Of a DNA stretch of 64,000 bases, positions 34,870-39,359 are shown piece by piece. Source of the stretch: Rhizobium terricola (GTDB lineage Bacteria > Pseudomonadota > Alphaproteobacteria > Rhizobiales > Rhizobiaceae); contig NZ_JABBGK010000003.1 of NCBI RefSeq assembly GCF_012927355.1, positions 62,001 to 126,000 on the forward strand, read 5' to 3'. Each line of letters starts with the position of its first letter. Within the stretch, counting starts at the first letter, position 1. Under the pieces are notes generated by a model. It did not search any database, was not told the DNA's origin, and was given only the letters and a program-made list of their open reading frames with translations. The position numbers and the translations under genes were made by a program.

Positions 34870-35691
34870 TTACTGGCCGTCGATCTGTGCGCCGATATAG
34901 GCAATTGCCTGCTGATAGACCTTGGCCGCATTCCAACCCTGCAGCGCGCCGAAATTCGGCTCGCCCGGCTGATAGCCCGCACCCGGCTGCCAGCCATGGC
35001 CACGCAGGAAGTTTGCGGTCGAAGCCAGCGCATCGGCGCGCGAGCGGACGAGGTCGACGCGGCCGTCGCCGTCGCCGTCGACGCCGAAGCGGGCGACGTT
35101 GCGCGGCAGGAACTGGGTCTGGCCGATTTCGCCGTGAGCGGCGCCTCGGGCGGTCAGCGGAAGCGTGCCGGTCGAGGCGAGCTGAAGCGCAGCGTAAAGC
35201 TGGTCTGTGAAGTATTCGGAGCGGCGGCAATCATAGGCCAGCGTGGCGACCGCAGACAGAGTGTGCTCGTTACCCATGTACGAGCCGAAGCCGGTTTCCA
35301 TGCCCCAGATGGCGATCAGGGGACCGGCCGGCACGCCGTAGCGCTGCTCGATCCGCGAGAACAGGGCTGCGTTGCCCTTCTTCATGCTCTTTCCGCGCGA
35401 GATGATGGTCGATCCGCCACGCTTCTGCATGAACTGCTCGAAGGAAAGCTTGAAGCTCTTCTGGCCACGGTCGGCGCGGATCGTGGCATTGTTGTAGGAA
35501 ACGGTGGCGAAGGCCTTGTCGAGAAGCTTGGGGCTCAGTCCCTGTGCGCTTGCCTCGGTCTTGAACTGCTCGACCCATTGCTCGAAACCCGCGGAGGTCT
35601 TGCCGCATTGCGCGGCGGAAGCCACGGTTGTTGCGGTTGAAAACGCGGCGGCGGTCAGAAACGCCGCGGACAAGATCTTGAACAGTCGCAT
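34870..35691 (-). CDS. Lytic murein transglycosylase, MltB/SLT2-like
   Basis: A periplasmic peptidoglycan-cleaving enzyme of 273 residues. The signal peptide is about residues 1-27 (ending SAA). The catalytic Glu is Glu132 in IWGMETGFGSYMG, and GEIGQTQFLPRNVARFG is the second SLT2 motif. The DGDGDGRVDL segment resembles the calcium-binding EF-hand loop of E. coli Slt35. It lacks an MltB lipobox: the only early Cys (29) is two residues past the likely signal cleavage. The C-terminal FLRGHGWQPGAGY is typical. It is transcribed toward the GGDEF gene and follows asd by 172 nt. Confidence 0.9.
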   Translation of the reverse strand: MRLFKILSAAFLTAAAFSTATTVASAAQCGKTSAGFEQWVEQFKTEASAQGLSPKLLDKAFATVSYNNATIRADRGQKSFKLSFEQFMQKRGGSTIISRGKSMKKGNAALFSRIEQRYGVPAGPLIAIWGMETGFGSYMGNEHTLSAVATLAYDCRRSEYFTDQLYAALQLASTGTLPLTARGAAHGEIGQTQFLPRNVARFGVDGDGDGRVDLVRSRADALASTANFLRGHGWQPGAGYQPGEPNFGALQGWNAAKVYQQAIAYIGAQIDGQ

Positions 35692-35817
35692 TTATGCCTC
35701 GAATCCTGCAATTTTAGACTTGCTGCGCACCATGCCAGCGACGGTTGATTCTGTCACGGGGCGTCGAGCTGTTTCGATGCTGCTTTTTTTGTCTTTCCGG
35801 TCACGAAAGGACGAGCT

Positions 35818-35856
35818 TGGCCGGCCCTGTTGTCCGTTTGGACGAAGGACCGGCCA
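35818..35856 (-). terminator. Hairpin downstream of asd
   Basis: TGGCCGG (35818-35824) pairs with CCGGCCA (35850-35856), with an inner GTCC/GGAC stem. It begins 7 nt after the asd stop on the minus strand. No U-tract follows directly, so termination efficiency is uncertain. Confidence 0.4.
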
Positions 35857-35863
35857 GGAACGA

Positions 35864-36898
35864 TCAGGCAGCAGCCTTCTTCGGCTTGATCAGGCCGCGA
35901 TTGACCAGCAGTTCCGCGATCTGCACCGCGTTGAGCGCCGCGCCCTTGCGCAGGTTGTCGGAGACGATCCACATGTTGAGGCCGTTCTCGACAGTTGCGT
36001 CTTCGCGGATGCGCGAAATATAGGTCGCGTCTTCGCCGGCGCATTCAACCGGCGTCACGTAGCCGCCGTTCTCGTGCTTGTCGACCACGAGGCAGCCCGG
36101 CGCGTCGCGCAGGATGTCACGGGCCTGATCGGCAGTGATCTCGTTCTCGAACTCGATGTTGACCGATTCAGAATGACCGATGAAGACCGGAACGCGCACG
36201 GCGGTGCAGGTCACCTTGATCTTCGGGTCGAGCATCTTCTTGGTTTCGGCGAGCACCTTCCACTCTTCCTTCGTGTAGCCGTCTTCCATGAACACGTCGA
36301 TGTGCGGGATGACGTTGAACGCGATGCGCTTGGTGAACTTCTTCGCTTCGACCGGGTCGGCGACGAAGACGGCGCGAGTCTGGGTGAAGAGCTCGTCCAT
36401 GCCTTCCTTGCCGGCGCCAGAGACCGACTGGTAGGTGGAGACCACGACACGCTTGATCTTGGCGGCATCGTGCAGCGGCTTCAGGGCCACGACGAGCTGC
36501 GCGGTCGAGCAGTTCGGGTTGGCAATGATGTTGCGCTTCTTGAAGTCGACGACGGCGTCCGGGTTTACTTCCGGAACGATCAGCGGAACGTCGGCGTCGT
36601 AGCGCCAGGCGGAAGAGTTGTCGATGACGACGCAGCCCTGGGCGCCGATCTTCGGAGACCACTTCTGCGAGATCGTGCCCCCTGCCGACATCAGGCAGAT
36701 ATCGGTGTCGGAAAAGTCATAGTTTTCCAGGTTCTGAACCTTCAGCACCTTGTCGCCGAAGGAGACTTCGGTGCCCTGGGAGCGGGCAGATGCCAGAGCC
36801 ACGACCTCGTCGGCGGGAAAGCCGCGCTCGGCGAGAATGTTCAGCATTTCGCGCCCGACATTGCCGGTTGCGCCTGCGATTGCGATCTTGAAACCCAT
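35864..36898 (-). CDS. asd: Aspartate-semialdehyde dehydrogenase
   Basis: NADPH-dependent reduction of aspartyl phosphate to aspartate semialdehyde, the branch point to lysine/diaminopimelate, threonine, methionine and isoleucine; 344 residues. The Rossmann motif IAGATGNVGREM is at 7-18. The catalytic Cys130 is in ANPNCSTAQLV, and the acid-base His is expected in the later VPVFIGHSESVNIEFE region. The ribosome binding site (AAAGAGAGC) is weak. About 110 nt upstream on the same strand ends a short ORF rich in Thr and Lys codons, which suggests control by amino-acid supply. Transcription probably starts near 37144. Confidence 0.96.
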   Translation of the reverse strand: MGFKIAIAGATGNVGREMLNILAERGFPADEVVALASARSQGTEVSFGDKVLKVQNLENYDFSDTDICLMSAGGTISQKWSPKIGAQGCVVIDNSSAWRYDADVPLIVPEVNPDAVVDFKKRNIIANPNCSTAQLVVALKPLHDAAKIKRVVVSTYQSVSGAGKEGMDELFTQTRAVFVADPVEAKKFTKRIAFNVIPHIDVFMEDGYTKEEWKVLAETKKMLDPKIKVTCTAVRVPVFIGHSESVNIEFENEITADQARDILRDAPGCLVVDKHENGGYVTPVECAGEDATYISRIREDATVENGLNMWIVSDNLRKGAALNAVQIAELLVNRGLIKPKKAAA

Positions 36899-37006
36899 TT
36901 ACATGCTCTCTTTCTGTCTCTCCGCGGTATGGTGAGGGGGAGAGCCGCGCATTGCGCGTCTTCCTTGTCCCCGGCCGTGCCGGGGAGAGAGCGGGGGCCA
37001 GAGACG

Positions 37007-37126
37007 TCAGACGGTTTTCGTCGTCGTTTTGGCCTTGGTCGTGAACGAAGCGGAGAAACGCATCGAGATCCCGGCGCTGTGCGCCAGGGCAAACCTGTCT
37101 GCGAAGTGCGAGCAGAGCGAATGCAT
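37007..37126 (-). CDS. Candidate Thr/Lys-rich leader peptide of asd
   Basis: A 39-codon ORF, ATG 37126 to TGA 37007, with AAGGA 8 nt before the start. The peptide begins MHSLCSHFADRF and ends TTKAKTTTKTV: six Thr (ACG/ACC) and three Lys codons among the last eleven. An internal ATG at 37063 would give an 18-residue version with the same tail. Asd supplies both Thr and Lys synthesis, so the codon content matches the products of the downstream pathway, the hallmark of attenuation leaders such as thrL. No intrinsic terminator with a U-tract follows, so the mechanism, if real, may be translational. I recognise no named family. Confidence 0.55.
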   Translation of the reverse strand: MHSLCSHFADRFALAHSAGISMRFSASFTTKAKTTTKTV

Positions 37127-37150
37127 GAAGCGAATCCTTATTCCGCCGAG

Positions 37151-37178
37151 CTATTAAAAGGTTTTTGCGGAGAGTCAA
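37151..37178 (-). promoter_or_regulatory. Promoter candidate for the asd leader
   Basis: On the minus strand TTGACT (37178-37173) within CTTGAC, then a 15-16 nt spacer and an AT-rich -10 (TTAATA/TAATAG, 37157-37151). Transcription would start near 37144, about 18 nt before the leader ATG. The -35 is strong, the -10 weak. Confidence 0.45.
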
Positions 37179-37264
37179 GCAAGAGCCGGGCCGATTCCTG
37201 CGATTCCTGAGTTCCTACAACCCTTTGGGTGCAGTGCAGCAGTTTGGCGCGCCTGTGAATTGCA

Positions 37265-37282
37265 TGTCGCAAATTGGCGACA
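37265..37282. promoter_or_regulatory. Operator-like palindrome upstream of the MFS symporter gene
   Basis: TGTCGCAAATTGGCGACA has perfect 6-bp arms and is symmetric at 16 of 18 positions. It lies 194 nt upstream of the symporter start, between it and the asd leader promoter. The binding protein is unknown. Confidence 0.45.
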
Positions 37283-37475
37283 AAAGCGGTTCTATTTTCT
37301 TATTTGCGTCGCTCATCAAACTTCGCGTTAGACTTAAGTCATAAGCCCAAAGCATCTCTCTTGATTTCTCCTGTTTTCTGCCAGTGTGTAAACAACCCGT
37401 AACCGCGACAAAGCGACCCGGAGGAGTGGTGGGTCGGCGGGCAACGGGGAACCTGATTTTTGTGGAGGAATAGCA

Positions 37476-39359
37476 ATGGCAAATGTCGCAGCCGTCACCG
37501 GCTCGCCCAGAGGCATGACCGCCGAAGAGCGCAAGGTTATCTTTGCGTCGTCTCTCGGTACGGTTTTCGAGTGGTACGACTTCTATCTTTACGGTTCACT
37601 GGCGCTTTATATCGGCGCGACCTTCTTCTCTCAGTATCCGGAAGCAACCCGTAACATCTTCACCTTGCTCGCCTTTGCTGCGGGCTTCCTTGTCCGTCCG
37701 TTCGGCGCGCTGGTTTTCGGTCGCCTGGGCGACCTGGTCGGCCGCAAGTACACCTTCCTTGTCACGATCCTTATCATGGGCTTGTCGACGTTCCTGGTCG
37801 GCCTTCTGCCCGGCTCGGCAACGATCGGCATCGCTGCTCCGATCATCCTGATCGCACTTCGCATGCTGCAGGGTCTCGCCCTTGGCGGTGAATATGGCGG
37901 TGCTGCCACCTACGTGGCCGAGCATGCCCCGCACGGCCGTCGTGGCTTCTACACCTCGTGGATCCAGACGACCGCAACGCTCGGCCTGTTCCTGTCGCTT
38001 CTCATCATTCTCGGCATCCAGACCGCAATGGGCAAGGAAGCCTTTGCTGCCTGGGGCTGGCGCATTCCGTTCCTGCTTTCGGCACTCCTCCTCGGCGTTT
38101 CCGTCTGGATCCGCATGAAGATGAACGAGTCCCCCGCCTTCAAGAAGATGAAGGAAGAAGGCACGCATTCCAAGGCGCCGATCTCCGAGGCCTTCGGCCA
38201 GTGGAAGAATGCCAAGGTTGCCATTCTCGCTCTCGTCGGCGCCGTCGCCGGCCAGGCCGTGGTCTGGTATTCCGGTCAGTTCTACGCGCTCTTCTTCCTG
38301 CAGAACGTTCTGAAGGTCGACGCGCAGGCTGCGAACATCATGGTCGCCATCGCGCTTGCCATCGGCACGATGTTCTTCGTCGTGTTCGGCTGGCTGTCCG
38401 ACAAGATCGGCCGCAAGCCGATCATCATGGCCGGCCTCCTGCTCGCCGTTCTCACCTATTTCCCGCTCTTCAAGGCCATGACCCAGTTCGGTAACCCGGC
38501 TCTGGCAACGGCCCAGGAAAATATCCGTGCGACGGTCACCGCCGATCCGGCAGACTGCAACTTCCAGTTCAACCCGACCGGTACCGCCAAGTTCACCACG
38601 TCGTGCGACCTCGCGACCTCGACGCTGACCAAGAACTCGGTTCCCTATGACGTCGTTGCCGGCCCCGCCGGTGCGGTTGCCACGATCAAGATCGGCGATG
38701 CGACGATCGAGAGCTATGACGCCGTCAAGGCCGGCGATCAGGCCAAGGCAAGCGATGCCAAGATGCAGAAGGGCATCAACCTCGCCCTGCAGGCCAACGG
38801 TTACCCGCTGGTTCGTGCTGCCGCAACGGTTCCGGAAAGCAAGCTCGACGGCTTCGTTGCCGCCAATTCGGAGCTCTCGCTCGACGCAGCTGCAATCCGT
38901 GCGGGCGAAAAGGCGATGGTTCCCACCAGCAAGCTCGTTGCCGACAAGGTCCTGACGGCCGACGAAGCCGCTGCTGCGGGCGCCGCAGAAGTCCCGGTCT
39001 ACACCATCGCCAACGCCGGTGCGTTCAAGATGGTGGCCGATCCGGCCCAGGTGAACTGGACGGGCGTCATCGGCGTGCTCACGATCCTGATGATCTACGT
39101 CACCATGGTCTACGGCCCGATCGCCGCCATGCTCGTCGAGATGTTCCCGACCCGTATCCGCTACACCGGCATGTCGCTGCCGTACCACATCGGCAACGGC
39201 TGGTTCGGCGGTCTTCTCCCGGCAACGGCCTTCGCAATGAGCGCCGCCAAGGGCGATATCTACTACGGTCTCTGGTATCCGGTCATCATCGCTGGCGTCA
39301 CTTTCGTCATCGGCATGATCTTCCTGCGCGAAACCAAGGACAACGACATCAACGGCTGA
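37476..39359 (+). CDS. MFS transporter, metabolite:H+ symporter family, with large internal insert
   Basis: A 627-residue permease, about 190 residues longer than usual. The opening SLGTVFEWYDFYLYGSLAL is the MHS-family (ProP/KgtP-like) signature. GRLGDLVGRKYTF (about 84-96) and SDKIGRKPIIM (about 308-318) are the two motif A loops. After helix 9 a segment of about 190 residues (337-526) without membrane helices is inserted. It is rich in Ala and Thr and has two Cys about 16 residues apart. Helix 10 resumes at WTGVIGVLTILMIYVTMVYGP. By topology the insert should be extracytoplasmic. It has a strong ribosome binding site (GGAGGAAT) and a terminator, so it is monocistronic. Substrate unknown; dicarboxylates, proline/betaine or similar osmolytes are family possibilities. 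Confidence 0.85.
   Translation: MANVAAVTGSPRGMTAEERKVIFASSLGTVFEWYDFYLYGSLALYIGATFFSQYPEATRNIFTLLAFAAGFLVRPFGALVFGRLGDLVGRKYTFLVTILIMGLSTFLVGLLPGSATIGIAAPIILIALRMLQGLALGGEYGGAATYVAEHAPHGRRGFYTSWIQTTATLGLFLSLLIILGIQTAMGKEAFAAWGWRIPFLLSALLLGVSVWIRMKMNESPAFKKMKEEGTHSKAPISEAFGQWKNAKVAILALVGAVAGQAVVWYSGQFYALFFLQNVLKVDAQAANIMVAIALAIGTMFFVVFGWLSDKIGRKPIIMAGLLLAVLTYFPLFKAMTQFGNPALATAQENIRATVTADPADCNFQFNPTGTAKFTTSCDLATSTLTKNSVPYDVVAGPAGAVATIKIGDATIESYDAVKAGDQAKASDAKMQKGINLALQANGYPLVRAAATVPESKLDGFVAANSELSLDAAAIRAGEKAMVPTSKLVADKVLTADEAAAAGAAEVPVYTIANAGAFKMVADPAQVNWTGVIGVLTILMIYVTMVYGPIAAMLVEMFPTRIRYTGMSLPYHIGNGWFGGLLPATAFAMSAAKGDIYYGLWYPVIIAGVTFVIGMIFLRETKDNDING

Follow-up and report, generated by a model that had tools for sequence, protein, structure and literature searches.

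A candidate threonine/lysine leader-peptide attenuator upstream of asd in Rhizobium terricola and its relatives

The asd locus and its leader ORF

What precedes asd in the window, the whole 64-kb stretch of Rhizobium terricola DNA analysed here? The gene encodes aspartate-semialdehyde dehydrogenase, its product scoring 473.7 bits against the NCBIfam model TIGR01296 (asd_B; cut-off 324.2), and it is preceded on the same strand by a short ORF with a ribosome site of its own (Table 1). The earlier note had described this ORF of 39 codons, with AAGGA 8 nt before the ATG at 37126 and a Thr/Lys-rich end, and every element of that description was confirmed: the final 11 residues, TTKAKTTTKTV, comprise six Thr and three Lys, and the stop lies 108 nt from the asd start codon (ATG 36898). 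The tail is also as far from random as had been claimed, no other 11-residue stretch in the six frames of the window reaching nine Thr plus Lys; the two that do so, out of 104,232 stop-free stretches, are overlapping registers of the leader ORF. An intergenic repeat was considered and rejected, since the leader core CTCTCTCCCCGGC has a single exact copy in the genome; with up to one mismatch it is found at 7 places, compared with 6 for a reversed-pattern control. Searched against NCBIfam, the 39-residue product gave no match. A search with Rfam 15 of positions 35500-37800 of the window gave a best E of 0.52, below gathering, and the leaders of five relatives gave no Rfam match at gathering.

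Upstream of the ORF, CTTGAC and TAATAG with their 17-nt spacing look like a rhizobial-type promoter, judged from the sequence; CTTGACT is invariant across 24 aligned same-genus rows and the -10 element varies more. This candidate is absent from the list produced by a strict sigma-70 scan. The asd ribosome site was assigned through what we take to be its complementarity to the 3' end of 16S rRNA. Overlapping the asd start, ATGTAAATG (36904-36896, minus strand) contains a start codon immediately followed by a stop; as relatives differ there, the overlap is probably due to chance. Within the leader ORF, ahead of the control codons, lies a strong hairpin, CCTGGCGC-aca-GCGCCGGG (37088-37070, minus strand); in a number of relatives the same place encodes 'PA..AG', and it could be a conserved pause hairpin. 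The divergent neighbour (37476-39359, plus strand) encodes a 627-residue MFS transporter whose Pfam matches end near residue 334, leaving a long unmatched remainder.

Table 1. Features of the asd leader region in the window, in order of transcription
Feature	Positions	Strand	Details or basis
Promoter-like CTTGAC (37179-37174), 17-nt spacer, TAATAG (37156-37151)	37151..37179	minus	sequence
Ribosome site of leader ORF, AAGGA	37135..37139	minus	8 nt upstream of ATG 37126
Leader ORF	37126-37007	minus	39 codons; ATG 37126, stop TGA 37009-37007; product MHSLCSHFADRFALAHSAGISMRFSASFTTKAKTTTKTV
Control codons, TTKAKTTTKTV	37010..37042	minus	Thr/Lys count and codon-change counts in relatives
Segment 1, GGCCA in the Lys-Ala-Lys codons (outer helix 1:2)	37030..37034	minus	A2 pair counts
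Segment 1, inner strand GACG (Thr codons), pairing with CGTC 37013-37010	37022..37025	minus	A2 pair counts
Segment 2, TGGCC, 6 nt past the stop; partner of segment 1 or segment 4	36996..37000	minus	A2 pair counts
Segment 3, GCTCTCTCC; partner is the region 5' of the asd ribosome site	36984..36992	minus	swap test and A2 pair counts
Hairpin 3:4, CCCCGGC-acg-GCCGGGG, without U-run behind; segment 4 is GGCC 36976-36973	36969..36985	minus	A2 counts
Variable second hairpin, CGCGC-aat-GCGCG (ACCCGC...GCGGGT in many other leaders)	36946..36958	minus	A2
Segment 5, GGAGAGA, pairing with segment 3	36917..36923	minus	A2 pair counts
Ribosome site of asd, AGAAAGAGAG	36906..36915	minus	sequence and conservation
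asd, aspartate-semialdehyde dehydrogenase	35864..36898	minus	NCBIfam TIGR01296, Pfam PF01118 and PF02774

Conservation of the leader and its control codons

Our genome set comprised 60 genomes, the window's own and 59 relatives, all with an asd match, 35 of the relatives belonging to the same genus. An in-frame leader ORF with a Thr/Lys tail is present in all 34 of these 35 that could be read (L010, whose contig stops short of the leader, was left out of the count); loss of the ORF, a frameshift or disappearance of the Thr/Lys codons, which the earlier note held to speak against its reading, is seen in none of them. Counted from the ATG, 32 of the 34 leaders have 39 codons, that of L027 has 40 and that of L030 has 44; tail variants include TTTAKTTTKTV, SKITAKTTTKTI, TITAKTTIKTV and TTAKTKTKTV, and in L015 the stop is TAA, not TGA.

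Is the tail maintained by selection? Thr makes up 45.6% and Lys 26.1% of the final 12 residues across 203 distinct leader ORFs, a composition biased upward because the set kept only ORFs with a tail score of at least 6; over the 25 residues before these, neither ranks in the 12 most frequent. The stop is TGA in 200 of these ORFs and TAA in three, and the distance from stop to asd is 103-117 nt for the central 90%. With the commonest codon at each place as reference, 94 distinct 11-codon tails show 164 synonymous and 82 non-synonymous single changes, compared with 27 and 72 possible ones, and 60 of the 82 non-synonymous changes lead to Thr, Lys, Ile or Met, compared with 18 of the 72 possible; these are counts of sequences, not of independent events. 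Ile and sometimes Met codons replace Thr or Lys in the leaders of relatives. Judged by these codon changes, by all 34 genomes read in the genus and by 85 of 85 further loci in the family (see below), the leader ORF and its Thr/Lys control codons are conserved beyond drift.

The N-terminal part of the leader behaves differently, varying widely between clades. Within some clades it is similar, MRGLLMAL... occurring in a number of the family leaders fetched, and this likeness would suit a peptide that itself acts, either through arrest or, in the manner of peTrpL from Sinorhizobium meliloti, in trans, for which the accessible part of PMC7298713 provides a precedent in the same bacterial group. 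However, it is the codons next to the stop that are kept as the N-terminal part diverges, and we consider an active peptide very improbable indeed.

How far does the leader extend beyond the genus? A covariance model built from 29 leaders, the window's own and 28 of the same genus (R1), matches at E <= 0.1 in 194 of 297 family genomes and 71 of 109 genera, the weakest matches being counted by score alone; in those secondary matches that were inspected (L083-L087, L358, L359) a scan found no Thr/Lys-rich ORF. All 85 matches fetched from outside the genus, chosen for high score and with one per genus preferred, lie directly upstream of asd, each at the end of an ORF whose last 12 residues contain six or more Thr, Lys or Ile. 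Scanning named genomes with a sequence pattern returned at least 117 stretches, 115 of them with asd and three of these with too little sequence upstream, and the leader is present in all 112 readable ones; as the pattern was derived from the leader and selects for it, the scan shows which genera have the leader and not how frequent it is. Among the 80 stretches for which a title was listed are Rhizobium, Sinorhizobium/Ensifer, Agrobacterium, Neorhizobium, Shinella, Martelella, Mesorhizobium, Phyllobacterium, Chelativorans, Aquamicrobium, Brucella/Ochrobactrum and Pseudochrobactrum.

The genomes missed by R1 were sampled with one per genus (45 genomes, 43 of them readable after G065, with only a 30% match, and G168, with a partial one, were dropped; a few of the genera do have an R1 match in another genome). 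At 34 of the 43 loci a short ORF is found whose tail content of Thr, Lys and Ile exceeds that in all 60 shuffles of the same upstream region, so that R1 underestimates the spread. Several of these variant leaders have about 11-15 codons, among them MRTTIKTKTTI (L285) and MTIRSLTKTSIS (L300). A Thr/Lys/Ile-rich ORF was not seen at the other nine loci (L317, L319, L320, L322, L280, L299, L306, L308 and L321), the first four of which are from genomes of 1.2-1.5 Mb. In other families of the order, represented by one genome each, 9 of 20 have a variant leader, seven exceeding all 60 shuffles and two being reached once. The class-wide set, the 29 best-scoring loci of 88 genomes with an asd match, contains 28 from other orders, and one of these 28 (L331) beats its 60 shuffles. 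Its short Thr/Lys-rich ORF, MAAPTTTKKTKTVA, lies 109 nt upstream of asd and is either ancient or convergent.

Two further observations concern individual leaders. In Agrobacterium L179, L202 and L214, and also in the loci L091 and L092, the tail reads RITAKTTIKTV, with Ile in place of Thr; several such leaders lack the usual ATG, and their start may be TTG or an ATG further inside. The metagenome-assembled genome titled 'Arenimonas sp.' (L143) bears the alphaproteobacterial asd leader, and the title is probably wrong.

Alternative pairings in the leader RNA

Pairing was assessed on an alignment of 72 diverse leaders (A2), drawn from 112 distinct regions with most same-genus rows and some close relatives deliberately omitted; L127, which has an insert, and the exact duplicates L017, L067 and L072 were also left out. 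Four helices among five segments emerged. Helix 1:2, which joins the Thr codons and the stop region with the segment behind the stop, is paired in 89.6% of cells, 34 of them double-changed. Its covarying positions inside the ORF are all third codon positions, on both sides of the inner part of the helix: at the best pair, 32 of the 72 rows have ACG with ACC and 24 have ACC with ACG, both Thr codons and the pair being retained, and in 7 rows (ACG with ACG) the pair is lost. Helix 3:4 is paired in 94.8% of cells with 27 double-changed. Helix 3:5, which takes in the purine stretch immediately upstream of the asd ribosome site, is paired in 95.2% with 30 double-changed cells, and five of its seven pairs are changed on both sides (0 of 500 shuffles); examples are CCCTCACC/GGTGAGGG in L135 and CTCTTCC/GGAAGAG in L105. 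Helix 2:4, between the post-stop GGCC and the GGCC in the 3' arm of hairpin 3:4, is paired in 95.8%, with six double-changed cells over three pairs, and is mutually exclusive with both 1:2 and 3:4.

For each of the four helices, none of 500 shuffles reaches the percentage paired, the number of double-changed cells or the covariation score, and for 2:4 this holds for all five measures. The two remaining measures do not always beat the shuffles: the number of double-changed pairs is reached by 105 of 500 shuffles for 1:2 and 92 for 3:4, and the number of further pair types by 40 for 1:2, 292 for 3:4 and 121 for 3:5. When own partners were compared with partners swapped between leaders, own pairing was better for 3:5 and for inner 1:2, each with 0 of 2000 swaps equalling it; the shuffle and swap controls ignore phylogeny, and several double changes are common by descent. 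The first candidate for a release helix, in which the post-stop segment would pair directly with segment 5, was rejected because 1755 of 2000 swaps were equally good.

The overlap of this strong RNA conservation with the control codons raises another possibility, namely a constitutive upstream ORF without amino-acid sensing, the translation of which couples to asd or shields its mRNA and whose Thr and Lys codons reflect a constraint on RNA or peptide. The accessible part of PMC10117765 would agree with this in so far as the S. meliloti homologue was found to be translated. However, the identity of Thr and Lys is retained even where codons and RNA pairs have changed, non-synonymous changes stay mostly within Thr, Lys, Ile and Met, the Thr/Lys bias recurs in unlike sequences of other families, and the products of the pathway fit the gene asd. 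We therefore regard an ORF that does not sense amino acids as highly unlikely, and return to a leader that responds to them.

Proposed mechanism and known systems

What can be discerned from these pairings about the control of asd? It is likely that asd is controlled by a cis-acting leader-peptide attenuator which senses how far tRNA-Thr and tRNA-Lys, and in some relatives tRNA-Ile too, are charged, with its main effect on translation of asd; on comparative grounds, the sensing of Thr and Lys charging is very probable and the translational mode probable. With ample Thr and Lys, the ribosome would reach the stop and cover segment 2, so that 3:4 and 3:5 would form, closing the ribosome site of asd. 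If no ribosome is on the leader, 1:2 would take up segment 2, with the same closed site as the outcome. With Thr or Lys in short supply, the ribosome would halt on segment 1 and leave segment 2 free to pair with segment 4; segment 3 would then be trapped in the loop of 2:4, the nested 3:5 would be impossible, and asd would be translated. We infer the polarity of the switch, shortage turning asd on, from the pathway; its kinetics, too, are inferred. Equilibrium folding with ribosome masks did not reproduce a switch, the mean accessibility of the asd ribosome site over 116 loci (one region, L002 and L032, being included twice) amounting to 0.405-0.411 with a stalled ribosome and 0.417 with a ribosome at the stop. 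As 2:4 is, moreover, weaker than 3:5 by 4.0 kcal on average (2:4 being lower in 12 of 72 leaders), any switch would have to be kinetic, its outcome set by the sequence of events while the RNA is being transcribed.

Leader-peptide attenuators that bear a terminator are the classical kind, the terminator-based trpL attenuator of S. meliloti being one of them, and the same leader peptide might instead control premature termination of transcription before asd, at a weak intrinsic terminator or through Rho. The longest T run between hairpin 3:4 and segment 5 is four in 13 of 72 leaders and at least five in three, which would lend this some substance. However, a tract with five U in eight follows hairpin 3:4 in none of the 72 leaders and the second hairpin in none either; no intrinsic terminator was listed for the minus strand between 35600 and 37480, all four terminator-like sites being on the plus strand; and the covarying helix 3:5 extends to the ribosome-site region, beyond any terminator position. 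Premature termination thus seems unlikely to us, and in view of the missing hairpin with U-run the leader is, on present evidence, not a transcription attenuator of the thrL or trpL type. The attenuation proposed in the earlier note is in this respect to be modified: its core is supported by the conserved ORF, the selected Thr/Lys codons and the covarying alternative pairings, and its analogy with thrL and trpL does not extend to a terminator.

The thrL leader ORF of the E. coli thr operon is rich in Thr and Ile codons and works by an intrinsic terminator. Like the asd leader, it abounds in codons for amino acids made by the aspartate pathway and precedes a gene of that pathway; unlike it, the asd leader has Thr and Lys codons, no terminator that we could find, and a helix reaching the ribosome-site region. 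Translational attenuators are known among the amino-acid genes of Actinobacteria. The RNA elements at such genes described in the accessible part of PMC1262725 likewise include regulatory elements with leader peptides, in another phylum. The trpL/peTrpL system of S. meliloti (PMC7298713 and PMC10117765, as far as their text was available) is a leader-peptide attenuator within the same bacterial group, which differs in serving the Trp pathway with a leaderless ORF of 14 codons.

The closest precedent, which corrects the earlier note, to which no described asd leader of this kind in Rhizobiales was known, is SEP5 of S. meliloti (Hadjeras et al., 2023; PMC10117765). According to the text accessible, SEP5 is a small 5'-UTR ORF that holds six Thr and three Lys codons towards its 3' end, translated as judged by Ribo-seq and Western evidence, upstream of a gene termed 'aspartate dehydrogenase'; it was suggested to be a leader peptide 'conserved only in Sinorhizobium'. 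In our set the leaders of Sinorhizobium L149, L151 and L197 end in KTTAKTTTKTV upstream of asd, and we take them to be the SEP5 element from position and composition. That part of the paper gives no RNA structure or mechanism, whereas the leader described here occurs family-wide and in part of the order and carries covarying pairings. The idea of an asd leader peptide was thus already in print for one genus, and what is new is the breadth, the RNA pairings and the missing terminator. The printed confinement to Sinorhizobium can be corrected: fast change is limited to the N-terminal part and does not extend to the control codons or the RNA pairs. The literature searched yielded no further description of an asd leader; this literature lacks most subscription journals. 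In the accessible part of PMC4117421 'asd' stands for the anti-Shine-Dalgarno sequence and not for the gene, and that of PMC1273637 does not mention asd.

On balance, we lean towards a wider reading, in which a largely undescribed translational attenuator extends through much of the order and integrates the charging of Thr, Lys and, by lineage, Ile tRNAs, with a five-segment switch whose fold coevolves with the wobble positions of the sensing Thr codons, and with leaders ranging from 39 to about 11 codons, the shortest possibly leaderless. Asd is the common entry to Lys, Thr, Met and Ile and to the cell-wall precursor diaminopimelate, and a dual Thr/Lys sensor on its gene, if true, would explain how this branch point is adjusted in many Hyphomicrobiales. 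It would also add an attenuator without terminator that is encoded in codons and structure together.

The short leaders of about 10-15 codons (L283-L285, L287-L291, L293, L296, L297, L300, L301, L303-L305, L307 and L313) were aligned separately (A3, 18 of the 19 short-leader loci, L318 being omitted). In this group swap tests were negative for 2:4 and for 3:5, and 3:5 is paired in 75.9% of cells without support from covariation (180 of 500 shuffles). A 2:4 hairpin with segment 3 in its loop is present, paired in 96.8% with three double-changed cells (0 of 500 shuffles), and fits a translational switch. The short ORFs start close behind a -35 element of the TTGAC type and contain Ile codons besides Thr and Lys; by their position they are possibly leaderless, like trpL.
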